Source: Nocardioides eburneiflavus
GTDB lineage: Bacteria > Actinomycetota > Actinomycetes > Propionibacteriales > Nocardioidaceae
Reading direction: 5' to 3'
Assembly: GCF_004785795.1 (NCBI RefSeq)
Contig: NZ_SRRO01000001.1
Coordinates: 2,108,001 to 2,172,000, forward strand
Length of the DNA: 64,000 nucleotides
In this document: in pieces, positions 11,088 to 29,020 of the stretch
Layout of the letters: every line of letters begins with the position of its first letter
Numbering within the stretch: position 1 is the stretch's first letter
Notes under the pieces: generated by a model
What the model was told of the DNA's origin: nothing
Databases searched by the model: none
Seen by the model: only the letters and a program-made list of their open reading frames with translations
Made by a program: the position numbers and the translations under genes

Positions 11088-11642
11088 ATGTTGGGCTACG
11101 CGCGCGTGAGTACTGGTGACCAGGACCTGCGGCGCCAGCATGACGCCCTCACCTCGGCTGGGTGCGATCGCGTCTTCGAGGACAAGGCGAGCGGTACGCG
11201 CTCGACGGCTGACCGGCCCGGCATGGCCGCCCTGATGGATCACGCGCGGGCGGGGGACAAGATCGTGATGATCGAGTTATCCCGAGCCGGACGCAAGACC
11301 TCCGACCTCCTCGCATGGGTAGAAGAACTCGACGCGCGGGGGATCGGCCTCGTCGTGCTGAACCTCGGGATCGATACGGCCACGCCAGGAGGGCGACTCG
11401 TCCTCACGATCATGGCCGCCCTCGCGGAGATGGAACGTGCCCTCCTAATCGAGAGGACACGGGACGGCCTCGCTGCGGCTCGACGCCGCGGACGCGTCGG
11501 CGGGCGCCCCCGTGCCCTCAGTGACGAGCAGGTGGCTCTGGCCCGCTCGCTCACGGCACAGGGCACCTCGGCGGCAGAGACGGTGCGGCTCCTTGGCGGC
11601 GTGTGCTCGGAGCGAACCATCCGACGCGTTGTGGCGGGATAG
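11088..11642 (+). CDS. Serine recombinase (resolvase/invertase family)
   Basis: A 184-residue small serine recombinase. The catalytic Ser is in YARVSTGDQDL at the N-terminus; the conserved Arg-containing block DRPGMAALMDHARAGD and IELSRAGRKT follow. The C-terminal helix-turn-helix (RPRALSDEQVALARSL to SERTIRRVV) binds the recombination site. Length and layout match Tn3-type resolvases and invertases. ATG 11088 is the start of the conserved domain, although the frame is open upstream to 10866. It lies at the very edge of the island, next to the broken tadB, and the 260 nt before it could hold its target site. No transposase is visible. Confidence 0.85.
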   Translation: MLGYARVSTGDQDLRRQHDALTSAGCDRVFEDKASGTRSTADRPGMAALMDHARAGDKIVMIELSRAGRKTSDLLAWVEELDARGIGLVVLNLGIDTATPGGRLVLTIMAALAEMERALLIERTRDGLAAARRRGRVGGRPRALSDEQVALARSLTAQGTSAAETVRLLGGVCSERTIRRVVAG

Positions 11643-11677
11643 ATTGAGGCCACGCCGCGTTTTCGCAGGTCAGGCAC

Positions 11678-11905
11678 ATGTTCGGCCACCGTGGTTATGA
11701 GTGGACCGTCAACGGCGCGCGCCTCGCCGTCGCGGCCCCGTGGATCGTGCTGCTGCTGATGTCCTTCCAGACCACGGCCATCCGGCAGTACGCCTCTCCC
11801 GGCGGGATCATCGTGCTGGGGATCGGCGCGGGGGTCTGCGTTCTCGCCTACGCCGCGATGATGCGCATCGGCCGGCTCCCCGTCGAGAAGCGGGTCCTGT
11901 CGTGA
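11678..11905 (+). pseudogene. tadB: tadB remnant, C-terminal part only
   Basis: The reading frame encodes a TadB C-terminus: VNGARLAVAAPWIVLLLM, then a second hydrophobic segment ASPGGIIVLGIGAGVCVLAY, and the typical RIGRLPVEKRVL ending. TadB is the inner-membrane platform protein of Tad/Flp pili and is normally around 300 residues; only about 67 TadB-like residues remain. Similarity begins at about 11,700 immediately after the island's recombinase. The remnant overlaps tadC by 4 nt (GTGA), as in intact loci. The missing part and the ATPase gene may lie at the other island end. Confidence 0.75.
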
Positions 11906-12843
11906 GCACCGCGGTCTGGGGCGGCCTGCTCGGTGCGCTGGCCGGGGCGGGCCTGTTCGTGGTCGTGCTGCGGATCAACGTCCTGCGTCGTCCCCAGCTG
12001 TCGCTGCGGGTCCTGGCCTACGTCCGCGACGTCCCGCGTCTCGACGAGACCCGGGGCGTGCGCCTCGCCGCGTCCACCCCCACCTCGGCCGCCGCCGGGA
12101 TCTTCGGCCCCGTGCTGCGGCAGGCCGCCGACCTGGTCGAGCGGGTGCTCGGCGGGAGCTCGTCCGTACGCCGTCGGCTGGAGCGCGCCGGTCTCGACCG
12201 CACTGTGCAGGACTTCCGCATCGAGCAGGTCGTGTGGGGCCTGGTCGGCTTCGCCGCCACCGCAGCGCTCGTCCTGCTCCGCGCCCTCGGGGGAGTCGGG
12301 GGAGTCGGATCCGGCCTGGTCTTCTGCGTGCTCGGCTTCGTGAGCGGCGTGCTCCTGCGCGACAACCGGCTCAGCACGCAGGTGAAGAACCGCGAGCGGC
12401 AGGTCCTCACCGAGTTCCCGACGATCGCCGAGCTGCTGGCGCTCTCCGTGGCCGCCGGGGAGAGCCCGGTCTCGGCGCTGGACCGCGTGGTCAGGCGCAG
12501 TCGCGGCGCGCTGTCGGAGGATCTCGGCCGGGTCCTGGCGCGCATCCGCACCGGCGAGCCGGTGGGCGTCGCCTTCGAGTCCCTCGCCCGCACCACCGGC
12601 CTGCCGATCGTGGCGCGCTTCGCCACCGGCATCACCGTCGCCATGGAGCGCGGCACACCGCTCGCCGACGTCCTGCACGCCCAGGCCGCCGACGTCCGCG
12701 AGGCGGGCAGGCGCCTGCTCATCGAGACCGCCGCGCGCAAGGAGATCGCGATGATGGCGCCCGTCGTGTTCTTCGTGCTTCCCGTGACGATCCTGTTCGC
12801 CTTCTATCCCGGCGTGCTCGGCCTCCGCCTCACCACGCCCTGA
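11902..12843 (+). CDS. tadC: TadC-like pilus assembly membrane protein (T2SS F family)
   Basis: A 313-residue type II secretion F-domain protein of the Tad pilus machine. It has an N-terminal membrane segment (residues 5-24), two in the middle (VWGLVGFAATAALVLL and LVFCVLGFVSGVLL), a cytoplasmic F domain with AELLALSVAAGESPVSALD, and a C-terminal membrane anchor. It starts at GTG 11902, overlapping the tadB remnant. With tadB broken the pilus is probably non-functional unless another copy exists. Confidence 0.82.
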   Translation: MSTAVWGGLLGALAGAGLFVVVLRINVLRRPQLSLRVLAYVRDVPRLDETRGVRLAASTPTSAAAGIFGPVLRQAADLVERVLGGSSSVRRRLERAGLDRTVQDFRIEQVVWGLVGFAATAALVLLRALGGVGGVGSGLVFCVLGFVSGVLLRDNRLSTQVKNRERQVLTEFPTIAELLALSVAAGESPVSALDRVVRRSRGALSEDLGRVLARIRTGEPVGVAFESLARTTGLPIVARFATGITVAMERGTPLADVLHAQAADVREAGRRLLIETAARKEIAMMAPVVFFVLPVTILFAFYPGVLGLRLTTP

Positions 12844-12867
12844 TTCCACCAACGAAAGGACACACCC

Positions 12868-13053
12868 ATGCACCCGTCCATCTCGGGACCGCTCCGGCAC
12901 CTGATGACACGTCCGCGCGACGAGCGCGGCGACGTGCCCGGCTGGGTGATGGTCACCCTGATGACCGCGATCGTCATCGCCGGACTGACGCCCTTCGTCG
13001 GCGACGAGCTGCGCAACCTGCTCGTGCGGGCGTTCTCGATGGTGAGCGGCTAG
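12868..13053 (+). CDS. Flp pilin-like small membrane protein
   Basis: A 61-residue protein with a short charged N-terminus (RPRDERGD) followed by one hydrophobic helix, VPGWVMVTLMTAIVIAGL. This layout is found in the small pilin-like genes between tadC and the tadE genes in actinobacterial Tad loci. AAAGGA precedes the ATG by about 7 nt. It is probably a minor subunit or pilin; a classical Flp processing motif is not obvious. Confidence 0.7.
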   Translation: MHPSISGPLRHLMTRPRDERGDVPGWVMVTLMTAIVIAGLTPFVGDELRNLLVRAFSMVSG

Positions 13054-13057
13054 GCAG

Positions 13058-13465
13058 GTGCCCCGTCCCGCTCGTGCCGACGAGCGCGGGTCGGCGGTGG
13101 TCGACTTCGTCCTGGTCCTGCTGGTCCTGATCCCGCTGGTGATCGGCATCCTCCAGCTCGCGCTGGTGCTGCACGTGCGCAACACGCTCGCCTCCGCGGC
13201 CGCCGAGGGAGCTCGGCGTGCTGCGGTCGCGGGCTCGTCCGCGCCCGCAGGCCGGGCCAAGATCGACGAGCTCGTCGACGGCGCGCTCTCGGAGGACTTC
13301 GTCCGGTCGGTCACGGTCCGGCCGGCGGAGGTGGGCGGATCGCCCGGCTACGAGGCTGTGGTCGAGGCCGACGTCGGGCTGCTCGGGCTGAAGGCGCTGG
13401 GCGGCGTACATGTGCGCGTCGCCGGGCACGCGATCGCGGAGCAGGCCGCAGGGGGTCCGCCGTGA
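13058..13465 (+). CDS. TadE-family pilus protein
   Basis: A 135-residue TadE-like protein. The N-terminal DERGSAVVDFVLVLLVLIP resembles the pseudopilin signature of TadE/TadF proteins, with a single membrane helix followed by a periplasmic region (HVRNTLASAAAEGARRAA). It starts at GTG 13058, 4 nt after the preceding stop, and overlaps the next gene by 4 nt. TadE-like proteins are minor pilins needed for assembly. Confidence 0.8.
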   Translation: MPRPARADERGSAVVDFVLVLLVLIPLVIGILQLALVLHVRNTLASAAAEGARRAAVAGSSAPAGRAKIDELVDGALSEDFVRSVTVRPAEVGGSPGYEAVVEADVGLLGLKALGGVHVRVAGHAIAEQAAGGPP

Positions 13466-13938
13466 ACCGCCGCCGTGACGAGCAGGGGTCCGCGCTCGTC
13501 GAGCTCAGCTGGCTCGCGATCATCCTGCTGGTCCCGCTGATCTGGATCGTGATCTCGGTCTTCGAGGTGCAGCAGGGCGCGTTCGCCACGAGTGCCGCCG
13601 CGCGCGCGGCGGGCCGGGCGTACGCCCTCGCCCCCGACGACGCGACCGGTGCGGCGCGCGCCGACGCCGTCGTGCGGCAGGTCCTCGCCGACCAGGGCAC
13701 CCCCGGCCAGGAGGCGGAGGTGACGGTCACCTGCGACGCCCCCGACGAGAGCTGCCACGTCGGCACGGCAGTCATCACCGTCCGCGTCCGCTCCGCGGTC
13801 GACCTGCCGTTCTTCCCCGCGATCTTCGACAAGGGGGCGGCGAGCTTCGCCCTCGACGCCACCCACACGGTGCCCATCGGGCAGTACGTCGAGAGCGCGC
13901 CCGAGGACCCCGAGGACCCAGAGGACCGCGAGCGGTGA
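13462..13938 (+). CDS. TadE/TadF-family pseudopilin
   Basis: A 158-residue protein with the pseudopilin-type N-terminus DEQGSALVELSWLAIILLVP and one membrane helix, followed by SAAARAAGRAYALAPDD. Two Cys residues (VTCDAPDESC) may form an extracytoplasmic disulfide. The C-terminal tail is a short acidic repeat of Glu-Asp-Pro units. It overlaps both neighbours by 4 nt (GTGA), so the three genes are co-translated. Confidence 0.75.
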   Translation: MNRRRDEQGSALVELSWLAIILLVPLIWIVISVFEVQQGAFATSAAARAAGRAYALAPDDATGAARADAVVRQVLADQGTPGQEAEVTVTCDAPDESCHVGTAVITVRVRSAVDLPFFPAIFDKGAASFALDATHTVPIGQYVESAPEDPEDPEDRER

Positions 13939-14369
13939 GGCGCGACGAGCAGGGGCAGGTGACGCTGCTGATCATCGGCTTCGCGAGCATCCTGCTGATG
14001 GCGATCGTCGTCGTCATCGACGCGTCCGCGGCCTACCTCCAGCGCCAGGGGCTCGACAACCTCGCCGACGGCGCCGCCCTCCATGGCGCCGACCTCGGTT
14101 CGGCCGGCATCTACGAGCAGGGTCTCGACGGCGAGCGGCTCACCCAGCAGGAGGCCGCGGTCGAGGCCGCGGTCCGCGACTACCTCGTACGCGCCGGCGC
14201 TCCCGAGAAGTACCCCGGCATCGACGTGGGCGTGCGCGTCGACCCGATCGGCCGGTCCGTGACGGTCCGGCTCAGCGCACCGCTGGACCTGCCGTTGCGG
14301 ATCCCGGGATCACCCAGCAGCCCGGTCGTGGGAGCCAGCAGCACGGCGGCGGTGACCATCGTCGACTGA
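13935..14369 (+). CDS. TadG-like/Rv3654c-type pilus protein
   Basis: A 144-residue protein beginning MRRDEQGQVTLLIIGFASIL with one membrane helix followed by AAYLQRQGLDNLADGAALHGA, the pattern of the short TadG-like proteins that close actinobacterial Tad operons. The remaining part is a predicted extracytoplasmic beta-rich domain ending in a hydroxylated tail. It is the last gene of the truncated Tad operon. Confidence 0.72.
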   Translation: MRRDEQGQVTLLIIGFASILLMAIVVVIDASAAYLQRQGLDNLADGAALHGADLGSAGIYEQGLDGERLTQQEAAVEAAVRDYLVRAGAPEKYPGIDVGVRVDPIGRSVTVRLSAPLDLPLRIPGSPSSPVVGASSTAAVTIVD

Positions 14370-14479
14370 ACCTCCCGCGCTAGACCAGCAGCGCTGGACC
14401 TTGACGACGTGGCGTGCCGAGGAGGTCACTGGGGGAGGGGCGACGCCCGCTCGGGTGCGCGCCGAAGCGGGGTGATCGC

Positions 14480-17400
14480 GTGCGCACGCACGAGGACGGG
14501 AGTGTGTCGGACGAGCAGGTGCACGTCCGGCCCGGCCCCGGCCTGCGCGTCGTCGTCGGCGAGCCCGGCACGGTGTGGCGGACGGGTGGGGTCAGCGGTC
14601 GGCTGACCCACGTGCTCGAGGTGTCCGCGTCCGACGCGAGCGGCCGGGTCGTCATCACCGTCACCCCCCGACCGGGCCGCACCCTCGCGGTGCTCCTCGA
14701 CGCGGACGACCGGTACGACCTCCTCCTCGAGACGACCCCCGACGACGGTGGCGGGCGCGTGACCCTGGAGGTGACGCGGGGCGGGACCCTCCGCGTCATC
14801 GTGGTCGAGCGCGACGACCGGATCGAGCGCGAGTCGGCCACGAGCGCGGAGCCCCCGACGGGAGGGCTGTGGCGGCCGGACGTCGTGCACGGGATCGACC
14901 GCCCGCGCGGTGGCCCGCTCCACTCGGGCGCACCACCGCCCGCGGCCGCACCACCTCCCGCCGCGGCACCGCCACCGGCCGCCGCGCCGTCTGCACCACC
15001 GCCGCCCTCGATGCCGCCGCCCGCTCCGGCTCCCACCCGCGGTCCCACCGCCGGCCCCGCCCCAGCTCCCGCTCCGCCCGTGCTGGCCGAGGTGGGGGCC
15101 GCCATGCCCGAGGAGGTGCATGTGGATGACGCGGTCCCGGTCGAGGTGCTCCTGAGCCGCGGGGAGGTGCAGGTCCGCGAGGGCACTGCCCACGACGAGC
15201 AGGTCATCGCGATGGACCCGAGCCGCCCCCTCGACCTCGTCGTGCTGCGGCGCGGGTTCGACCTCGACGAACGCGAGACACCCCGCGAGGTCGGCCATCA
15301 CACGATCGAGCTGCCGCCCGGCGAGGGCGCTGCGCGGGTCGTGTTCTGGCTGCGCGCGGCGGACGAGGGCGAGGGCGAGGTGCAGGTCGTCGCGCGCCAG
15401 GGCCACCCGCTGCCCCTGGCGACACTGCGGCTGGTCGCGCGGATCCTGCCCCGTCGAGCAGTGCCCCTCGACCGACGCTCGGCCGAGGAGGCCGTCGCGG
15501 ACCGGCCGGTCGTGCGCCGCGAGCGGCCCATGGAGGCCACCACCGCCTTCGTCAACCCGCGCTCCCTCGTGGTCGACGAGAACCGCGTCGGCGAGCGGTG
15601 CGAGCTGTCCTTCGACCTCGTCCTGCCGGGGTTCCGGTCCAGCTACAGCCACGTCGTCCCGCACAAGACCGCGGTGCTGACCGCGCTGTTCGGCGACCTC
15701 GAGCACGCTTGGCAGCGGCTGAAGGACATCGGGACCCCGGCGACGCGGAGCGCGGCGTTCCAGAGCCGGCTCCAGGGTCTCGGCTCCCGGCTCGCCGCCG
15801 ACGTGCTGCCGCCGGACCTGCTGGCCGACCTGCGCGACCATCTCGACGAGATCGACGAGCTCGCCGTCATCACCAGCGGTGAGACCGACATCCCGTGGGA
15901 GCTGGTCCACCTCTGGCCGCCCGACGCGGGCGAGGACCGGGACGGGGTCGGGTTCCTCGGCCGGGCCGGTCTCGTGCGCTGGGTCTACAACACCGGCCAC
16001 CCCACCGACCTGTCGGTCCGCACGGGGCGGGCCTTCCACCTCGTCCCGGCGTACGCCGACGCGCTGCTCGTGCTCGACGAGGCGCAGCTCGAGCCGGCGT
16101 ACCTGCGGCCCTTCGGCGCCGTCGCCCTCACCCCGCCCGACGCGACGGGCCTCGCCCGGCTGCTCACCAGCGGCGAGGTCGACCTGCTCCACTTCGCCGG
16201 CCACGGCTTCAGCGACGACACCGTCACGCCGCCGGTCAGGCTGATGGCGCTCGCCGACTACCGCCACGGGGTCGCGGTCGACGGCGACCGGTCGCGTGTC
16301 GCGTACGGCCTCGACGACCTGCGCCAGGTGCTGCCCGACGTGCCGCCCCTGCGGTTCGGCGAGCCCGGGCCGCTGGTCTTCCTCAACGCCTGCCGGATCG
16401 GCCAGCCCCCGTCCACGCGGTCGGAGTCGGGAGGGTTCGCCGAGGTGCTCCTGCGGGGCGGCGCGGGCGCCTTCGTCGGCTGCCTGTGGTCGGTGGGCGA
16501 CACCCCGGCCCGCGAGTTCGTCGCCGCCTTCTACGACGCGCTCCACCGCGGCCACACCATCGCGCACGCCACGCTCCTCGGCCGCCGCGCGGCACGCGAG
16601 GCCGGGGACATCTCGTGGCTCGCCTACACCGTGTACGCCCACCCGGACGCCCGCCTGGCCGACCGTCCGCCACCGGGTGACCCCGTCCTCCCACCGACCG
16701 TCCCTCCAGCGAAAGGCAGCTCGATGACCACGACCGCAGCGACGACCCCGGCGACGACCCGCAAGGCGCCGGCCCTCACCCGCGACCAGCTCCGCACGAT
16801 CCACCCCCACGTGATCAGCACGGAGGACGGCAGGCTGGCCGAGGGGGCGTCGTCCCTGCCCACCGGGGTGGGCGACTTCCGGACCGTACGGGCCGACATC
16901 GACGACCTGTTCGCCACCCGGCTGCCCGCCTTCATCGAGGCGAACGGGGGCGGGCAGGTCCCGATGGTGCTGTGGGCGCACGGGGGACTGGTGAACAAGG
17001 CCGGCGGCCTCCGCGTGGCGCACTCGCAGGTCGAGTGGTGGCTCGCCAACGGCGCCTTCCCGGTGCACTTCGTGTGGCGCACCGGCCTCGCCGAGTCGCT
17101 GTGGGACGCGGTCAAGGACAACCTCCCGGGTGCCTCCCGAGGCCTCGACGACCTCTGGGACAAGGTCGTCGAGGGCGCGGTGCGCGGCGCCCGGGGCAGG
17201 CACACGTGGAGCGCGATGAAGAACACCGCGCGGCTCACCAACGAGAAGGACACCGGGGGCGCGTGGTACTTCGCGCAGAAGCTCGCCGCCTTCATGAAGG
17301 AGCACGAGGACGCCGTGACGGTGCACGCCGTCGGCCACAGCGCCGGCTCGATCTTCCACTCCTGGCTCGTCCCCGAGCTGCTGGCCGCCGGCGTGCCGCA

Positions 17401-18886
17401 GGTCGCCTCGCTCAACCTGCTCGCGCCGGCGATCCGGGTGGACGAGTTCAAGCAGCGGGTCATGAAGCGGACCGTCCTGCCCAAGATCGCGGCCACCACG
17501 ATCTTCACGATGTCCCAGCCGTTCGAGGAGGACGACACCTGCATCGGCGTCTACCGCAAGTCGCTCCTCTACCTCATCCGGGCCTCGCTGGAGGACGACC
17601 AGGACGCCGAGATCCTCGGGCTCCAGGAGTGCCTGCGCCGCGACCCCGACCTCGCGGTGCTGCTCGGGACGGCCGGGTCCGGCGCCAAGGGCGAGGTCGT
17701 GTGGTCGCGGACCGTCGGCGGCGGCCCCCGGACCACCAGCTGCTCCACGACCCACGGCGGGTTCGACAACGACCGGGCCACCATGGACAGCCTGGCGCGG
17801 CGGATCCTGGGCACCGACGACCTGAAGGCCGGGTTCGGCACGGTGCCGGCCACCCGCGGCCTGGTCGAGGAGGAGCCGCTCTGGCCGTCGGAGGCGGCCG
17901 CCTTCGCCTACATCGCCTCGCGCGAGCGCCCGACCACGGACGGCCCGGGCAGGAGGGCCCTCTGCATCGGCATCGACGCCTATCCCTCCCCGGCGGACCG
18001 GCTGGCCGGCTGCGTCGCCGACGCCCGGGCATGGCGCCAGGAGCTGCAGCACGCCGGGTTCACGGTGGACATCCTCGAGGACGAGGACGCCACCCGGGAG
18101 CGGATCGTCGAGGGCATCCAGGACCTCATCGTCCGCAGCCGCGCCGGCGACGTGCTGGTCGTGCAGTTCGCCGGCCACGGCACGACCGTCGACGACCTCG
18201 ACGGCGACGAGCTCGAGGAGGCGGTGCGCACGGGGGAGACCAGCGACGAGGCGCTGTGCCCCGTGGACTTCCGCGACGGCGAGCTGCTGATCGACGACGA
18301 CCTCGGCCAGCTCTGGGACCTCCTGCCGGAGGGGGTGAGCCTCACGGTGTTCTTCGACTCGTGCCACTCCGGAGGCAACCAGCGGCAGGTGCAGGACCCT
18401 CCCGTGGACGACACCACGACCAACGTGCGGCTGGTGCGGCTGGCGCCGGAGGACGTCGCCGCCTACCGCGCCAAGCGGGGGTCGGTGACGCGGGCGAGCC
18501 GTTCGCTCGACTCCGAGCGGTCGGTCTACTTCGGTGCCTGCCAGGCGACCGAGCTGGCCTACGAGAGCAACGGCCAGGGCGACTTCACGCGGATGGCCCT
18601 GCCTCGCATCCGGGAGTGCCTGGCCGGGACCAACCAGCAGTTCTACGACGCGGTGCTCGCCGACTTCGGCGCCGGACGGAGGCAGACGCCGGTCCTGCTG
18701 CCGCCCGGCCTGGCGTCGCGCGCCTTCCTCGCGCCGGCCACCGCAGCGCCCGTGGCTCCCGAGGCGCCGCGGCCGCCGGCACCGGTCCCGCCCGTCACCG
18801 AGCTGCCCGCCCTCGCTGGGGGGACCCCGCGCGAGCAGGCGATCGTGTCGGTCCTACGCGGGCTGGCGGACCTGATCGAGGCGTGA
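14480..18886 (+). CDS. CHAT protease - alpha/beta hydrolase - metacaspase fusion
   Basis: A 1,468-residue uninterrupted frame. Order: a beta-rich N-terminal domain (about 10-130), a Pro/Ala-rich linker with PPPAAA repeats (about 150-200), a second beta-rich domain, then a CHAT caspase-like protease domain with HFAGHG (catalytic His575) and FLNACRIG (Cys638), a hydrolase-like domain with GHSAGS (Ser954), and a C-terminal caspase/metacaspase domain starting LCIGIDAYP with QFAGHG (His1233) and FFDSCHSGG (Cys1295). All catalytic residues are present, so the protein has two Cys proteases around a Ser hydrolase. CHAT and metacaspase proteins act in bacterial signalling, self-killing and defence. 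No signal peptide or membrane segment is seen. Alternative starts are GTG 14504 (GAGGA upstream) and 14414. Confidence 0.85.
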   Translation: MRTHEDGSVSDEQVHVRPGPGLRVVVGEPGTVWRTGGVSGRLTHVLEVSASDASGRVVITVTPRPGRTLAVLLDADDRYDLLLETTPDDGGGRVTLEVTRGGTLRVIVVERDDRIERESATSAEPPTGGLWRPDVVHGIDRPRGGPLHSGAPPPAAAPPPAAAPPPAAAPSAPPPPSMPPPAPAPTRGPTAGPAPAPAPPVLAEVGAAMPEEVHVDDAVPVEVLLSRGEVQVREGTAHDEQVIAMDPSRPLDLVVLRRGFDLDERETPREVGHHTIELPPGEGAARVVFWLRAADEGEGEVQVVARQGHPLPLATLRLVARILPRRAVPLDRRSAEEAVADRPVVRRERPMEATTAFVNPRSLVVDENRVGERCELSFDLVLPGFRSSYSHVVPHKTAVLTALFGDLEHAWQRLKDIGTPATRSAAFQSRLQGLGSRLAADVLPPDLLADLRDHLDEIDELAVITSGETDIPWELVHLWPPDAGEDRDGVGFLGRAGLVRWVYNTGHPTDLSVRTGRAFHLVPAYADALLVLDEAQLEPAYLRPFGAVALTPPDATGLARLLTSGEVDLLHFAGHGFSDDTVTPPVRLMALADYRHGVAVDGDRSRVAYGLDDLRQVLPDVPPLRFGEPGPLVFLNACRIGQPPSTRSESGGFAEVLLRGGAGAFVGCLWSVGDTPAREFVAAFYDALHRGHTIAHATLLGRRAAREAGDISWLAYTVYAHPDARLADRPPPGDPVLPPTVPPAKGSSMTTTAATTPATTRKAPALTRDQLRTIHPHVISTEDGRLAEGASSLPTGVGDFRTVRADIDDLFATRLPAFIEANGGGQVPMVLWAHGGLVNKAGGLRVAHSQVEWWLANGAFPVHFVWRTGLAESLWDAVKDNLPGASRGLDDLWDKVVEGAVRGARGRHTWSAMKNTARLTNEKDTGGAWYFAQKLAAFMKEHEDAVTVHAVGHSAGSIFHSWLVPELLAAGVPQVASLNLLAPAIRVDEFKQRVMKRTVLPKIAATTIFTMSQPFEEDDTCIGVYRKSLLYLIRASLEDDQDAEILGLQECLRRDPDLAVLLGTAGSGAKGEVVWSRTVGGGPRTTSCSTTHGGFDNDRATMDSLARRILGTDDLKAGFGTVPATRGLVEEEPLWPSEAAAFAYIASRERPTTDGPGRRALCIGIDAYPSPADRLAGCVADARAWRQELQHAGFTVDILEDEDATRERIVEGIQDLIVRSRAGDVLVVQFAGHGTTVDDLDGDELEEAVRTGETSDEALCPVDFRDGELLIDDDLGQLWDLLPEGVSLTVFFDSCHSGGNQRQVQDPPVDDTTTNVRLVRLAPEDVAAYRAKRGSVTRASRSLDSERSVYFGACQATELAYESNGQGDFTRMALPRIRECLAGTNQQFYDAVLADFGAGRRQTPVLLPPGLASRAFLAPATAAPVAPEAPRPPAPVPPVTELPALAGGTPREQAIVSVLRGLADLIEA
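16711..16726 (+). promoter_or_regulatory. Possible internal translation start inside the protease fusion
   Basis: GAAAGG (16711-16716) stands 7 nt before an in-frame ATG at 16724. From there the frame would give a 720-residue protein, MTTTAATTPATTRKAPALT onward, containing only the hydrolase and metacaspase domains. The residues before it (DPVLPPTVPPAKGSS) read like a linker, so both a full-length product and a shorter one are possible. Confidence 0.4.
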
Positions 18887-18914
18887 ACCGGGGCCGGACC
18901 GAGCCGCTGGGGCG

Positions 18915-19238
18915 TTACCCCGCCCCGCCCTCGAGGTCGACCACGAGCCGGCCGCCCTCGAGGCGCAGGACGTAGGTCCAGCGCCCCTCGGGCAGGGCCG
19001 GCTGGTCCGACCCCGCGTACGGGAGGTGGACGAGGTCGGTGCCGGGGCCGGACGCCTCGATCGCCGGGTAGCGGTGCACGGTCTCCACCGGCACCCACCC
19101 GGAGACCGACCCGGGTGGCAGGGGTCCCAGTGGCACCGGGTCCCCCTGCCCGCCGGCTCGCGTGAGGCGTACGTCCACCAGGTCGTGCCCGGTGTCGTTG
19201 CGGACGCGGATCTCGCTCACGGTGGCCCGCCGCCTCAC
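18915..19238 (-). CDS. Small beta-rich hypothetical protein
   Basis: A 107-residue soluble protein with alternating hydrophobic strands (EIRVRNDTGHDLVDVRLT at the start, RWTYVLRLEGGRLVVDLEG at the end); it resembles a small beta-sandwich. No family is recognised and there is no signal peptide. The GTG at 19238 overlaps the stop of the metalloprotease gene by 4 nt, so it is translated with it and may be a partner, inhibitor or accessory protein. It ends 28 nt from the 3' end of the convergent CHAT-metacaspase gene. Confidence 0.65.
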   Translation of the reverse strand: MRRRATVSEIRVRNDTGHDLVDVRLTRAGGQGDPVPLGPLPPGSVSGWVPVETVHRYPAIEASGPGTDLVHLPYAGSDQPALPEGRWTYVLRLEGGRLVVDLEGGAG

Positions 19239-20539
19239 GCCATGTAGTCGATGCCGCCCGAGATGACGTCGATGCGCCGCGCCGCCGCCGTCCCCGTCCC
19301 GGTGCGGACGCCGATCGAGATGCCGTTGCCCCAGAGCACGTCCGGCTTGTGCGCCACCCCGAACACGGCGAACGCCTGGCTGCCCGACAGGTTGACCTCC
19401 TGGTGCGCGGCGATGCGGCTGGACCCGTCGTAGACGTGCACGTCGCGGACCACCGCGCTAGGACCGCCGGTCACGAACCGCAGCATCGCCCGCGCGATCG
19501 AGAGCCGGTTGCCCTTGGTGATCACCGGCGTGGGCACGGGCAGGTGGTACCAGTTGGTCGTGTTGGGCTTGCCGACGACGCGGGTGAAGAAGCCGTAGCG
19601 CCGCACCGACTCCACCGCCGAGTCCAGCTCGATCTGGAGGTCCGTGCCGTGCACCCAGCTGGCGTGCTCGATGGCGAAGTTGCCATAGAGGCTGCGGATG
19701 CCGGCGATGTCGTCGGCGGCGACCAGGCGGTACGGGCCGCCGTAGAACGGAGCCATCAGTGCGCCCGCCACGTCGCTGTGGCCGAGTCCGAGCGAGTGGC
19801 CGAACTCGTGTGCCGCGACGGTGACCAGGTCGATGCGTCCCGCTCCGGGCGGGACGACGACCGTCCACGTCTCGGCCTCGTCGAAGTGCGCGTCGCCCAT
19901 GATCGCCGTCGGCGGTGCGGGCGGGACGGACGGGTAGAACGCGTGCGCCAGGACGCCGCTGGCGCCGTCGAACGGGCTGCCGTCGCCGTGGTCGCCGCCG
20001 ACGAAGCGGATCACGATCTCGGGCCCGGCCGTCATGGCCACCCGCGAGAAGCGCAGCGGCGTGTGGCCTGCCCACAGGGCGAAGGCCTGCTCGATCGCGA
20101 CGACGATGTCGTTCTCGGGCACGTCGGGGGTGAAGTTCTGGAACGCGTAGCGCAGGTTGTTCGTCGCCCACCGGCGCCCGGAGGTGGTGAACTCGTCCAG
20201 CCCGGGGGAGTCGGGGATGCCGCACCGCGGCTGGTTCATCTTGTCGGCGGTGGCGGCGTCGAGGGTGCCGGTCACGGGCAGGTTCGCGAACCTCTGGAAG
20301 GTCGCGATCGCGTCCTTGGTCGCCGCGTCCAGCTTGCCCTTCTTCGCGCCGGACGGGCGTCCCGCGACGCCGGCCTGGTCGTCCCCGTCCCCGAGGGGGA
20401 ACGTCGGGGCGCCGATCGCGTCCGCGTCGAGGTCGCCGAGGTAGCCGAACCGGGCGAGGTAGTCCTGGACGACGGTGACGTCGGCCGCCGAGGACCTCGA
20501 GGTGAGCTCGGGCTTGACCTTCTTCTTGGGCGTCGGCAT
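19235..20539 (-). CDS. Matrixin (MMP-like) zinc metalloprotease with cysteine switch
   Basis: A 434-residue protein. An N-terminal peptidoglycan-binding-like domain (about 15-100) ends in PRCGIPD (104-110), the cysteine-switch motif that keeps matrix metalloproteinases inactive (Cys106). The catalytic domain follows: LRYAFQNFTPDVP, the metal-binding HGDGSPFDG and GDAHFDEAETW, the zinc site HEFGHSLGLGHS (244-255) and the Met-turn ALMAPFY (Met262). The C-terminal 140 residues are beta-rich and not identified. The layout is that of eukaryotic MMP zymogens. There is no signal peptide. AAGGAGGAG lies seven nt before the ATG, deciding the start over upstream frames. It is co-translated with the small gene 18915-19238. 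Confidence 0.9.
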   Translation of the reverse strand: MPTPKKKVKPELTSRSSAADVTVVQDYLARFGYLGDLDADAIGAPTFPLGDGDDQAGVAGRPSGAKKGKLDAATKDAIATFQRFANLPVTGTLDAATADKMNQPRCGIPDSPGLDEFTTSGRRWATNNLRYAFQNFTPDVPENDIVVAIEQAFALWAGHTPLRFSRVAMTAGPEIVIRFVGGDHGDGSPFDGASGVLAHAFYPSVPPAPPTAIMGDAHFDEAETWTVVVPPGAGRIDLVTVAAHEFGHSLGLGHSDVAGALMAPFYGGPYRLVAADDIAGIRSLYGNFAIEHASWVHGTDLQIELDSAVESVRRYGFFTRVVGKPNTTNWYHLPVPTPVITKGNRLSIARAMLRFVTGGPSAVVRDVHVYDGSSRIAAHQEVNLSGSQAFAVFGVAHKPDVLWGNGISIGVRTGTGTAAARRIDVISGGIDYMA

Positions 20540-20699
20540 GGCGACTCCTCCTTCGTTGTCGGGCACCCAGCATGGGAAGCGCTGCGTGACTCCTGCGTGA
20601 CCGATCTGGACCGGTGCCGCCGATCCCTGCGTCCGTGACGGTCGCCACCGGCCCCCACCCCATGAGATGAGCCATGGGGGTCTACCGACCGGTCGCCGG

Positions 20700-20711
20700 T
20701 AGCGTCGTGGC
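20700..20711 (+). promoter_or_regulatory. Leaderless promoter of glgX
   Basis: TAGCGT (20700-20705) is followed by 6 nt and the ATG at 20712. No Shine-Dalgarno sequence precedes the ATG. The -35 region is not recognisable. The intergenic space to the divergent metalloprotease gene is 172 nt. Confidence 0.45.
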
Positions 20712-22888
<2,177 letters not shown>

Positions 22889-22892
<4 letters not shown>

Positions 22893-25198
22893 AGCACCGC
22901 GCCAGCACCGCCCGAGCACCCCGCAGCACCTACCGCCTCCAGGTCAGCCCCGACTTCGACCTGTACGCCGCGGCCCGGGTGCTGCCCTACCTGCACGACC
23001 TCGGCGTCGACTGGGTCTACCTCTCGCCGCTGCTCGCCTCCGAGCCGGGCAGCACGCACGGCTACGACGTGGTCGCGTTCGACCACCTCGACGAGGAGCG
23101 CGGCGGCGAGGAGGGCCTCGCCGCCCTGTCCGCCGAGGCGCGTCGCCTCGGCATGGGCGTGCTCGTCGACATCGTCCCCAACCACGTCGGCGTCGCCACC
23201 CCGTCCGAGGACCCCTGGTGGTGGGACGTCCTCAAGCTCGGGCGCGAGTCCGAGCACGCGACCGCCTTCGACGTCGACTGGGCCGCCGGCGACGGCCGCA
23301 TCCTGATCCCGGTGGTCGGCGACGACGACGAGGACGCGATCCGGGTCGTCGCGTCCGGCACGGGGGAGGGCGAGGTCCGCTACCACGACCAGCGCTTCCC
23401 GATGGCTCCCGGCACCTCGACGCTGGAGGAGCAGCACTACGAGCTGGTCAGCTGGCGCGCGGCCGACGACGACCTCAACTACCGCCGGTTCTTCGCCGTC
23501 AACACGCTCGCCGCCGTACGGGTCGAGGACCCCGAGGTCTTCGCCGAGACGCACGTCGAGATCAAGCGGTGGTTCGACGAGGGACTCGTCGACGGCCTGC
23601 GCGTCGACCACCCCGACGGACTGCGCGACCCCAAGCGCTACCTCGACGACCTCGCCGCCCTCACCGGTGGCGCCTACGTGCTCGTCGAGAAGATCCTCGA
23701 GCCCGGCGAGGAGCTGCCGGCCGACTGGGCGACCGCCGGCACGACGGGCTACGACGCCCTCGCCCACATCGACCGGGTCCTCACCGATCCGGCCGGGGAG
23801 GCGCCCCTGACCGCGCTCGAGGACCGGCTGCGCGGCACGACGGTGGACTGGGCGCAGATGGTCCACGACAACAAGCGCGCCGTCGCCGACGGAATCCTGC
23901 ACTCCGAGGTCATGCGGATCACCCGCGAGGTCGAGCGCGTCCTGCACGCCAGGGACGAGAGCGCCGACGAGAAGGCCGTCGCCGACGCGGTCGCCGAGCT
24001 CCTGGCCTGCTTCCCCGTCTACCGCTCCTACCTCCCCGAGGGCCGCGACCACCTCGACCGGGCCTTCGCCCGGGCGCGCGAGCAGCGTCCGGACCTCGCC
24101 GACACGTACGCCGTGCTCGAGCCGCTGCTGCACGACGAGTGGAGCCAGCCGGCGCGCCGCTTCCAGCAGACGTCGGGCATGGTGATGGCCAAGGGCGTCG
24201 AGGACTGCTCGTTCTACCGCTGGTCGCGGCTCACCTCGCTCAACGAGGTCGGCGGGGACCCGTCGGCCTTCGCGCTCGACGTCGACGGCTTCCACGACGC
24301 GATGGCCGCCCGGCAGCGGGACTGGCCCGACGCGATGGTGACGCTGTCGACCCACGACACCAAGCGCGGCGAGGACGTCCGCGCCCGGATCACCGTCCTC
24401 GCCGAGGAGCCCGGCCGCTGGGAGCGGGCGCTCGACGAGCTGCTGCGGCTCGCGCCCGTGCCCGACGCGGGCTTCGGCTCGCTGCTGTGGCAGGCCGTCC
24501 TCGGCGCGTGGACCCCGGACCACCTCCCCGACCTGCGCGACCGCCTGCACGGCTACGCCGAGAAGGCGATGCGCGAGGCGGGCGACCGCACGACGTGGAC
24601 CGAGCCCGACGAGGCGTACGAGGCGCAGGTGCACGCCGCGGTCGACGCGGTCTTCGACTCCGCGGACGTGCAGCGGGTGCTGACCGACCTGGCCACCCGC
24701 ATCGACCAGCCAGCCCAGGCCAACTCGCTGGCCGCCAAGCTCCTGGCGATCACCATGCCGGGCGTGCCGGACGTCTACCAGGGCAGCGAGCTCTGGGAGA
24801 CCTCGCTGGTCGACCCCGACAACCGCCGCCCTGTCGACTTCGACCACCGCGCCGCCGTGCTGGCCGGCACCGCAGAGGACGACGCGGCGTCCAAGCTGCA
24901 CGTCACCTGCACGGCCCTCACCCTGCGCCGCGAGCGGCCCGGGCTGTTCACCGGCTACGCGCCCGTGACGGCCACCGGGTCGGCCGCGGGCCACGTGGTC
25001 GCCTTCGACCGCGGGGGCGCGATCACCGTCGCCACCCGCCTGCCCGTCGGGCTCGCCGCGGCCGGCGGCTGGGGCGACACCGTCCTGGACCTGCCCGAGG
25101 GTCGCTGGCACGACGTGCTCACCGGCACGGACACGGACGGGAGGCTGGCCGACCTGCTCGCCACCCACCCCGTCGCACTCCTGGTGAGGACCGACTGA
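22889..25198 (+). CDS. treY: Maltooligosyltrehalose synthase TreY
   Basis: A 769-residue GH13 enzyme that rearranges the reducing-end alpha-1,4 bond of a maltooligosaccharide to the alpha,alpha-1,1 bond of a trehalosyl end. The N-terminal [16 protein letters not shown] and [16 protein letters not shown] are typical; catalytic residues are Asp240 (GLRVDHPDG) and Glu267 (LVEKIL), followed by the TreY-type [14 protein letters not shown]. It starts at GTG 22889, overlapping glgX by 4 nt, and ends overlapping treZ (ATGA). The three enzymes are therefore made together. Confidence 0.94.
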
Positions 25199-26943
25199 TG
25201 CGCGGACCGTACGACGTGTGGGCGCCGCGACCGGACCGGGTGCGGCTCGTCCTCGCCGGCGAGACGCTCGAGATGACCCGCGCCGACGACGGCTGGTGGA
25301 CGCCCAGCGAGCCCGTGCCGTCCTCGGACGCGGCCGTCGACTACGGCTACCTCCTCGACGACGACCCGGACCCGCGCCCCGACCCGCGCTCGCGGCGCCA
25401 GCCCGACGGCGTGCACGGGCTGTCGCGGCGCGACACCACGGCGTACGAGTGGGGCGACGCGTCGTGGACCGGACGCCAGCTCGCCGGATCGGTGATCTAC
25501 GAGCTGCACGTCGGGACCTTCACCCCCGACGGCACGCTCGACTCGGCGATCGAGCGGCTCGACCACCTGCTCGACCTCGGCGTCGACCTCGTCGAGCTGA
25601 TGCCGGTCAACGCGTTCAACGGCACCCACAACTGGGGCTACGACGGCGTCGGCTGGTTCGCCGTCACCGAGGCGTACGGCGGCCCGGACGCCTACCGCAG
25701 CTTCGTCGACGCCTGCCACGCGCGGGGCCTCGGGGTCGTGCAGGACGTGGTGCACAACCACCTCGGCCCGTCGGGCAACTACCTGCCGCTCTTCGGGCCC
25801 TACCTCAAGGACGGCCGCAACACCTGGGGCGACCTGGTCAACCTCGACGGCGACGGCTCCGCCGAGGTGCGCCGCCTCATCCTCGACAACGTGCGGATGT
25901 GGTTCGAGGACTTCCACGTCGACGCCCTGCGCCTCGACGCCGTCCACGCGCTCAGCGACACCTCCGAGGTCCACCTCCTCGAGGAGATGGCGATCGAGAC
26001 CGCCGCGCTGTCCGCGCACCTGCGTCGCCCGCTCACCCTGATCGCCGAGTCCGACCTCAACGACACGACTCTCGTACGCCCGCGCGAGGCGGGTGGGTAC
26101 GGTCTCGACGCCCAGTGGAGCGACGACTTCCACCACGCCGTCCACGTCGCGCTGAGCGGCGAGACGACCGGCTACTACGCGGACTTCGAGCCGCTCGAGG
26201 CGCTGGCCAAGGTGTGCGAGAAGGGCTTCTTCCACGACGGGACCTTCTCGTCCTTCCGCGAGCGCGACCACGGCGCGCCCGTCGACACCGCACACATGCC
26301 GACGTGGCGGCTCGTCGTCGCCAACCAGAACCACGACCAGGTCGGCAACCGTGCCCGCGGCGACCGGCTCGCCGAGCACCTCGACGACGACCAGCTCGCC
26401 TGCGCCGCGCTGCTCACCCTGGCCGGTCCGTTCACGCCGATGCTGTTCATGGGGGAGGAGTGGGCGGCGTCGACGCCGTTCGCGTTCTTCACCTCCCACC
26501 CCGAGCCCGAGCTCGGGAGGGCGACGGCCGAGGGCCGGATCGCGGAGTTCGAGAAGATGGGGTGGGACCCCGACGAGGTCCTCGACCCGCAGGACCCCGA
26601 GACCTTCCACCGCTCCCGCCTCGACTGGGACGAGCGCTCTCGCGGGCGCCACGCGGTCGTGCTCGACTGCTACCGCCGGCTCGGCCGGTTGCGCCGGGAG
26701 CTGCCGCAGCTCACCGACCCGGCGTTCGGGTCGGTCTCCTGCACCGTCGAGGGCCGGGTCTTCACGATGCGTCGCGGGGACCTGCTGGTCGTGGTCAACA
26801 CCGGCCACCAACCCGCGGAGGTGCAGGTCGGGGGCCGCGAGGTGCTGTTCGAGACCCCCGCGGGAGTCGGCGTACGGGACGGCGTCGCGTCGTTGCCACC
26901 GCACGCGGGCGCGCTCCTGGGACCCGCCACAACTTTTCCCTGA
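25198..26943 (+). CDS. treZ: Maltooligosyltrehalose trehalohydrolase TreZ
   Basis: A 581-residue GH13 enzyme that cuts the trehalosyl end off TreY products, releasing trehalose. An N-terminal beta domain with [15 protein letters not shown] and WTPSEP precedes the barrel: [32 protein letters not shown] with Asp247, and AESDLND with Glu284. A C-terminal beta domain ends at LPPHAGALL. The ATG at 25198 overlaps the treY stop. Length is normal. It is the last gene of the operon. Confidence 0.94.
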
Positions 26944-27003
26944 CTGCCCACGTCTCCCCTCCGAACGGGCCGAGCCCAGGCCCCACCGGACGGGGGACGA
27001 ACC

Positions 27004-27780
27004 ATAAACCGCATCACCGCACTCGCCGCGACCGTCGCACTGACGGCCGGCTCGCTTGCCCTCACCGCGCCGTCGCAGGCCGCACCCGCGCGGGCCTACA
27101 AGGTCACCGCCAGGGCCAACCTCGAGGTCGCCGTCGCCCGGGAGGACACCGTCAAGGTCCGCGGCCGCGTCACGCCCAGGGCCGCCGGCCAGAAGGTCGT
27201 CCTCCAGCAGCGCGTCGGCGAGAACCCGAGGTGGAGGCGCACCGGCACCGCGAAGATCAAGCGCAACGGCAGGTACATCCTCGAGGACAGGCCGACGACG
27301 CCTGGGTCGCGCGAGTACCGCGTGCTCAAGCCGGGCAGCCACGGCATCAAGAAGGGCTGGAGCAAGACCCTCGAGGTGGAGGTCTACCGCTGGCAGAAGC
27401 TCGCCACGCGGCGGGTGGGCCCCAGCGAGAACATCTCGACCACCAGCGTCTACATCGGCGCCGGCCTTGCCACCCGTAGCCTCGTGAACATCGAGCCGGG
27501 TGTCCCCGCCTCCGTCGAGTACACGCTGGGCCGCAAGTGCGTGGAGCTGCGTGCGAGGTACGCCCTCACCGACCAGGCTGCCACCGGTTCGTCGGGTGAG
27601 ATCTCCGTCAGCGCAGACGGTGCCGTGCGCACCACCCACACGCTGGCGGTCGGCACGATCGTGGACGACGGGCCCCTCGACGTCTCCGACGTCTTCCGCC
27701 TCAAGATCGACATCTCGACCACGCCGACTCCGGCGGCGTACGCCGCGGTGGCCACGCCGGAGGTGCTCTGCACGCGCTGA
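27004..27780 (+). CDS. Secreted hypothetical protein, apparent ATA start
   Basis: A 258-residue protein with a good Sec signal peptide: after the first codon the frame reads [18 protein letters not shown], ending near [11 protein letters not shown]. The mature part has a tandem-beta appearance ([20 protein letters not shown], then [12 protein letters not shown]), similar to cell-surface Ig-like modules, and a second domain of about 120 residues. Function unknown. The codon in the expected place of the start is ATA; GGGGGA stands 6 nt before it, and the open frame contains no ATG, GTG or TTG from the stop at 26941 to beyond the signal peptide. Either initiation at ATA or a G-to-A change. Confidence 0.65.
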
Positions 27781-27890
27781 CGCGCACCCAGTCCGGCAGC
27801 GGCGGGCACGACCGGGATTCACAGGCCCCGGGAGTGTCCGCCGCTGTCACGTCCGGGGCGCTCCTTTCGACACGTTTCCCGGGCGAGCCG

Positions 27891-27904
27891 TACTGTTGCT
27901 CCTT
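27891..27904 (+). promoter_or_regulatory. Leaderless promoter of prfB
   Basis: TACTGT (27891-27896) with 8 nt to the GTG at 27905 and no ribosome binding site. This fits the pattern seen at other genes but with a longer spacer, so it is a weaker example. Confidence 0.35.
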
Positions 27905-29020
27905 GTGGCAGGCATCGACTTCGACCAAGAGATCAAGCAGCTCCAGGCGACCATGAAGACCATCGGTCAGGTCCTCGACCTCGACAAGATGCGCGACGAG
28001 ATCGCCGACCTCGGCGAGCAGGTCGCCGCGCCGGACCTGTGGGACGACGTCGAGGGTGCCACCCGGATCACCGGCCGGCTCTCCGCGCTCCAGGGCGAGA
28101 TGGACCGCTACACGAGTCTCGAGTCCCGCATCGAGGACCTCGGCCTGATGGTCGAGATGGCGCAGGACGAGGGCGACGCCGACACGCTCGCCGACTCCGA
28201 GGCCGAGCTCGCCCGCATCAAGAAGTCCGTGGAGTCCCTGGAGATCCGCACCCTGCTGTCGGGGGAGTACGACGAGCGCGAGGCCATCGTGACGATCCGC
28301 TCGGGCGCCGGTGGCGTCGACGCGGCCGACTTCGCCGAGATGCTGATGCGGATGTACACGCGCTGGGCCGAGCAGCACAAGTACGGCGTCGAGGTCTACG
28401 ACGTGTCCTACGCCGAGGAGGCGGGCATCAAGTCCGCCGAGTTCGCCATCCACGCCCCCTACGCCTACGGCACCCTCTCCGTCGAGGCCGGCACCCACCG
28501 CCTGGTGCGGATCAGCCCCTTCGACAACCAGGGCCGCCGCCAGACCTCCTTCGCCGCGGTCGAGGTCGTGCCGGTCCTGGAGCAGACCGACGAGATCGAG
28601 GTCGACGAGAACGACATCCGCACCGACGTCTTCCGCTCCGGCGGCCCGGGCGGCCAGTCCGTCAACACGACCGACTCGGCGGTCCGCCTCACGCACATCC
28701 CGACCGGCATCGTGGTGTCCTGCCAGAACGAGAAGTCGCAGCTGCAGAACAAGGCGTCCGCGATGGTGGTCCTCAAGGCCAAGCTCCTGGCGAAGAAGAA
28801 GGAAGAGGAAGCCGCGCTCAAGAAGGACCTCAAGGGCGACGTCGCGGCCAGCTGGGGCGACCAGATGCGCAACTACGTCCTCAACCCCTACCAGATCGTC
28901 AAGGACCTGCGGACCGGCCACGAGTCCGGCAACCCCAGCGCCGTGTTCGACGGCGACCTCGACGACTTCATGGAGGCCGGCATCCGCTGGCGCCGAGGGG
29001 CCGAGAAGGTCGACGCCTGA
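27905..29020 (+). CDS. prfB: Peptide chain release factor 2
   Basis: A 371-residue class I release factor that ends translation at UGA and UAA. The RF2 tripeptide SPF is at 204-206 and the catalytic GGQ at 249-251 ([11 protein letters not shown]). The N-terminal region reads through in one frame from [13 protein letters not shown], without the internal UGA and +1 frameshift known from E. coli prfB. It is separated from ftsE by a hairpin and a short spacer. The prfB-ftsE-ftsX-M23-smpB order is typical of actinobacteria. Confidence 0.95.

Follow-up and report, generated by a model that had tools for sequence, protein, structure and literature searches.

We identified a protein in which a DUF7363-CHAT half is fused to a predicted hydrolase-metacaspase half, encoded in a 64 kb stretch of Nocardioides eburneiflavus DNA (the window, by which we mean the whole of the stretch analyzed). 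A conserved inner start at the joint would add a free copy of the second half, the proposed executioner, and we regard it as about an even call that the gene is a predicted cell-death or antiphage switch built in this way. Features of the gene and its surroundings are given in Table 1.

Table 1. Features of the fused gene and of the insertion that carries it.
Feature	Position in the window	Strand	Basis or remark
Stretch absent from congeners G007 and G012, between TadE/G-like and glgX-like genes	14363–20634		about 6.27 kb; locus comparison
Whole open frame	14414–18886	+	later in-frame starts at 14480 and 14504
N-terminal beta domain	14519–14815	+	model residues 14–112 counted from 14480
DUF7363 (PF24063), beta-sandwich in the model	15098–15433	+	Pfam and model
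CHAT by PF12770 match	16067–16570	+	His597 at 16202, Cys660 at 16391
Variable linker between CHAT and hydrolase	16655–16780	+	low confidence in both structure models
GAAAGG, Shine-Dalgarno-like signal of the internal start	16711–16716	+	sequence comparison
Internal in-frame ATG (Met771), predicted second start	16724–16726	+	product 16724–18886
Predicted alpha/beta-hydrolase domain	16781–17818	+	Ser976 at 17339, Asp1041 at 17534, His1114 at 17753
Metacaspase (Peptidase_C14) domain	17939–18742	+	His1255 at 18176, Cys1317 at 18362

The gene is one coding frame (GC3 0.95) of 1,490 codons counted from the first GTG. Translation may begin as much as 30 codons further in, because the related proteins P0002 and P0003 begin at equivalents of the two later in-frame GTG codons. 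The sequence-only reading had proposed a single protein with CHAT, hydrolase and metacaspase motifs, and this was borne out. All motifs were found in the one frame (HFAGHG at residue 593, FLNACRIG at 656, GHSAGS at 974, QFAGHG at 1251 and FFDSCHSG at 1313), and the domain order is N-terminal beta domain, DUF7363, CHAT, GHSAGS hydrolase-like domain and metacaspase. Pfam matched DUF7363 (residues 229–340, 72 bits vs a cut-off of 28.3), CHAT (residues 552–719, 59.3 bits vs 24) and Peptidase_C14 (residues 1180–1418, 83.6 bits vs 21.4), and the CHAT fold was also matched by Foldseek. The same reading had placed two beta-rich domains in front, and the structure model contains both ahead of CHAT (the second at residues 201–323 counted from 14480).

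The catalytic residues, claimed earlier to be intact, are present in the window protein and conserved in its relatives. In an alignment of the first half (24 of the 120 proteins listed plus the window protein), the CHAT dyad His597/Cys660 was identical in 25/25 rows. In the corresponding alignment of the second half (55 of the 120 plus the window protein), the caspase residues His1255 and Cys1317 and the hydrolase residues Ser976, Glu1038, Asp1041 and His1114 were identical in all 56 rows. Across the wider set of homologs listed, P0002–P0179, GHSAG was present in 178/178 sequences and loose caspase His and Cys patterns in 172/178 and 164/178, respectively; these counts take in incomplete rows, and the loose patterns are not exhaustive. 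The caspase part of P0008, P0015 and P0027 looks frameshifted or cut and was left as found. Two Agromyces proteins, P0025 and P0026, have the halves in swapped order, with Phe in place of the CHAT Cys and a damaged caspase site (Cys in one, His in the other), and have kept the hydrolase Ser. These order-swapped proteins speak against an obligatory protease role.

The hydrolase region of the window protein had no Pfam match of its own. In the structure model the elements come in the order known from alpha/beta hydrolases (strand, GHSAGS, helix, with the acid after a later strand and the His before a helix), and we treat the fold of this part of the second half as predicted. Profile matches in relatives were below the cut-offs: 23.4 bits vs 26.3 for PF12697 in a relative from a Mesorhizobium plasmid (locus L024), and 19.4 bits vs 27 for PF12146 across the GHSAG of P0179. 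At L024 the hydrolase-matching stretch is spread over two neighboring genes, and the annotation of the first is alpha/beta hydrolase. As a query, the hydrolase region drew 1,082 proteins. An hhalign comparison with the DUF7379 profile (8.7% probability) was too weak to use for the fold and was dropped. Caspase-domain matches took up the VIA-align list, and its lack of hydrolase rows says nothing about the hydrolase fold.

A protein search, which admitted sequences of 0.55–1.75 times the query length, yielded 407 proteins at E≤1e-3, too many for a chance resemblance, and the best 120 of the 407 were listed. Homologs with the same order had been called for, and among the matches listed we found 23 close relatives with the halves joined alike (P0002–P0024), which together with the window protein form the fused clade. 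The same joint in these 23 relatives, and the one frame in the window, rule out two genes joined by a frameshift or assembly error. A further fused protein, P0027, lies outside the clade by its first half (33% identity) and is not in the count of 24; it has the linker Met discussed below and lacks the Gly at position −3.

The joint of the fused gene carries GAAAGG-N7-ATG, and this is the sole exact match to the pattern on both strands of the 64 kb (0.06 expected). Its AAA is the only one among the 19 Lys codons of the gene, vs 4/220 in the 27 other window genes that served as controls, and only this one of 13 in-frame ATGs is preceded by a Shine-Dalgarno core. The same control genes had an SD-like core before 9/130 internal in-frame ATGs (one of the nine being probably the true start of an M10 peptidase gene); therefore the signal of a single genome would count for little, and the weight lies on its conservation. 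That such cores are not rare would also suit a gene that makes the long protein only, with the internal ATG a relic of an old second gene and the caspase-fold domains acting on each other within the chain, as the sequence-only reading had it, and so would the uninterrupted frame at the joint of all 23 clade relatives. One would expect such a relic to decay, yet the linker Met is present in 24/24 fused-clade proteins and Gly at −3 in 22/24, amid a linker that varies in length and letters. Thr or Ser follows the Met in 24/24 and Lys or Arg is at −4 in 21/24, and the pattern [KRQE]GxxM occurs 10 further times in the 33,638 residues of these proteins. That the Lys codon within the signal is the sole AAA of the gene also argues against a relic.

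Among fused-clade members, DNA of the joint was seen for the window and for a Nocardioides immobilis locus (L001), and the others were compared by protein letters alone. In L001 the Lys codon at the same place is also AAA (3/38 Lys codons there), and the second half is intact from the same start. Its first half (L001, 8001–10221) is frameshifted twice, once within a short linker repeat, and this may be a draft error.

We also considered that the Lys/Arg-Gly of the linker is a cleavage site for the metacaspase or CHAT, at which the halves of the long protein would be separated. Metacaspases cleave after Lys or Arg and are activated by calcium, and this basic specificity, the residue at −4 and the modeled disorder of the linker would all suit such a site. 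However, cleavage leaves the invariant Met and the following Thr/Ser unexplained; P0009 has Glu-Gly ahead of the Met, and P0011 and P0015 have Gln-Arg directly before it. Moreover, this signal also stands ahead of second genes, where there is no linker: GAAAGG with 6–7 nt spacing is the start signal of the second gene in loci L009 and L017, as in the window and L001, and also of a caspase-only second gene in L022. Other second genes start after GAGGAG (L008) or GGAAGGA (L016). A cleavage site at this position thus seems to us quite improbable.

The same halves occur as two adjacent genes in four loci, separated by 75 nt (L008), 45 nt (L009), 42 nt (L016) and 168 nt (L017), and the second gene starts where the fused protein has Met771. 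At L016, the split pair is followed by a third gene (11141–12376) containing DUF7363 and a CHAT-like remnant that lacks HFAGHG; it may act as a decoy or an inhibitor. In a tree of the second half (without P0008 and P0027), the 24 fused-clade rows (23 fused proteins and L001) were on one side of a 100/100 branch, as a clade making only the long protein might be. Split first halves were collected in a separate search because of the length range admitted by the main one. In a tree of the first half (without P0027, P0185 and P0192, in the last of which the motif was not found), separate first-half proteins P0182–P0184 were nested among the fused-clade proteins (support 96/90 and 95/89); the tree carried a long-branch warning that takes in the fused-clade stem and several split rows. 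These three proteins, of which P0182 is named as from Marmoricola, end just past CHAT. Since they lie within the fused clade, the joint has been altered at least twice, by renewed splitting or by repeated fusion, and the latter may be equally possible. If P0182–P0184 were re-split, the inner start would still have been usable. The nesting of split proteins also speaks against the long protein as the only product, which we consider unlikely. The gene probably makes both the long product and a short hydrolase-metacaspase product, because the clade keeps the Met and Gly, the sole AAA sits in the signal and split first halves nest in the clade. The hydrolase-caspase half would then probably also be made free without any cleavage.

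Outside the fused clade, the predicted hydrolase-metacaspase core is common across the wider family and is joined to other domains. Amidase_2 was present in 79/97 relatives outside the clade among the matches listed, replacing DUF7363-CHAT next to the same core. Other such relatives contained DUF7379 or, in P0055, Peptidase_C11 and CHAT (C11-CHAT-hydrolase-caspase). L022 comes from the bacterial family to which the window genome belongs; there a gene with the metacaspase alone comes after a DUF7362-DUF7379-DUF7363-CHAT gene, and the same three enzyme kinds are distributed differently. In P0190, a CATASP domain is fused to DUF7363-CHAT. A row of hydrolase, caspase, Trypsin_2-PLDc_2 and trypsin-like genes near an IS21 element was found in L024 (5272–12834, Mesorhizobium plasmid pOM4) and looks like a conflict system. 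Another protease-hydrolase pairing was found in Sinorhizobium (L025, 4164–6122), where a related hydrolase stretch shares one protein with a papain-family (C1) peptidase. By such associations the family may be tied to conflict systems. DUF7363, DUF7362 and DUF7379 were not named in the literature searched.

The fused gene lies on a stretch that is absent from two congeners. We queried 25 genomes with the TadE/G-like and glgX-like neighbors (names taken from Pfam families), and G007 and G012 have both neighbors close together, with the aligned blocks 60 and 109 bp apart and neither CHAT nor caspase at this empty site. No direct repeats of 8 or more bases were found between the two insertion-end stretches compared. 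DUF7363 at E≤0.001 was detected in 2/215 genomes of the genus, 3/391 of the order, 5/394 of the class, 5/396 of the phylum and 5/398 of the G318 family, with 2, 2, 3, 2 and 4 over the curated cut-off, respectively; these sets overlap, and the window's own genome is included in all but one family set. Matches under the cut-off were in G292, G541, G747, G1021, G1169 and G1440, and three loci from such genomes (L010, L011 and L023) had no match to the fused protein.

The same insertion carries a Matrixin (M10) + PG_binding_1 + DUF6623 gene on the minus strand (19235–20539, open to 20713), with a likely start at Met59, GAAGGAGGAG ahead of it and a signal peptide not evident by eye. A 107-residue frame without a Pfam family (18915–19238, minus strand) overlaps the end of this gene by four bases. 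Both were considered as partners and rejected, as eight related loci searched by tblastn contained relatives of neither. Elsewhere in the genome, two further CHAT matches were found (G000:C1:1881525–1882421 and 4582000–4582659, whose frames are 1870 and 886 residues long), and overlapping fragments matching the glgX-like gene (48–99% identical) near a contig end (G000:C1:4968832–4970954) are either a degraded copy or an assembly artifact.

The ten flanking frames (11701–29017) belonged to tad-type pilus, M10 peptidase, amylase-type and release-factor families or to none, and none of them to a defense family by Pfam. These neighbors, and the frequent Amidase_2 in relatives, would fit a role of the protein in regulated lysis, in development or in protein turnover and not in defense; a death or autolysis role was suggested for metacaspases with Amidase_2 (PMC3501461). 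On the other hand, the presence of the gene is patchy, it is inserted at an empty site, and related arrangements include CATASP or lie beside trypsin-like and PLD genes. We therefore find a non-defense role doubtful.

SAVED-CHAT proteins activate a caspase, and the window CHAT shares its fold with them and with Craspase. The window protein belongs to the CHAT family (PF12770) by profile score and His/Cys dyad and to the metacaspases (Peptidase_C14) by profile score, fold and His/Cys dyad. However, the Pfam scan of the protein contained no SAVED family, and a paper on SAVED-CHAT with PCaspase was not found in the literature searched. Craspase (Csx29 TPR-CHAT) is a CHAT protease triggered by RNA (PMC9729208). 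Its kind is marked by TPR repeats and a gRAMP partner gene; the window protein contained no TPR family, and the ten flanking frames no CRISPR family. Other candidates were also rejected. The match to EACC1-associated caspase (NF047832) was 26.2 bits vs a cut-off of 140; the protein matched the PADLOC 'caspase' model PDLC02987 only and not BovA of Borvo (in L022 the first gene has a weak BovA match of 20.5 bits); and CATRA/CATASP components of the CATRA ternary system were absent from it.

Three described systems resemble parts of the fusion. In VMAP systems, according to Kaur et al. (2020, PMC7159879), the caspase domain always occurs with a neighboring alpha/beta-hydrolase gene, and the two are proposed to work together in MoxR-vWA loci. 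In contrast, the window pair is in one chain fused to DUF7363-CHAT, and MoxR and vWA families were absent from the ten flanking frames. The canu caspase-nuclease loci combine a caspase with Ig-like folds and proteolytic effector activation (PMC12799240), whereas no nuclease was seen in the window protein and the candidate effector is the hydrolase in the same chain. The closest described case for the kept inner start is Type I-D cas10d/cas11d, in which a once-separate cas11d seems to have joined the 3' end of cas10 and retained its own start, giving two products (PMC10212523); unlike it, the window gene encodes proteases and a hydrolase, and its inner start is inferred from sequence alone. The sequence-only reading had found the triple fusion unfamiliar; it missed the two-gene versions, the start signal kept at the joint and the hydrolase-caspase pairing already known from conflict systems (PMC7159879). 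Fusion to CHAT and conservation of the inner start were not described in the literature searched (it lacked most subscription papers) and look new.

The best reading of the domain arrangement is a CHAT initiator with a hydrolase-metacaspase executioner. The beta domains would sense a trigger or act as a scaffold; the triggered CHAT, as initiator, would cleave or activate the metacaspase, which would then cleave other proteins or free its neighbor, and the hydrolase would be an effector. The relay first proposed, in which cleavage between the two caspase-fold domains would release the predicted hydrolase, is plausible. The inner Shine-Dalgarno signal and ATG would yield the second half alone, so that both products are made and extra executioner is supplied. 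As the outcome, the cell would stop growing or die, and a phage or other invader would thereby be limited. Taken as a whole, the proposal has in our view an even chance of being right: a one-gene, two-product death switch, in which an initiator CHAT is fused to an executioner also made alone, with halves fused and split more than once, as a protease counterpart of cas10d/cas11d. With CHAT, hydrolase and metacaspase in one chain, and the last two probably also made free, the initiator and executioner roles would be testable from a single gene. If the proposal is true, an immune-type protease would join the few gene fusions that keep an inner start to set subunit ratios.
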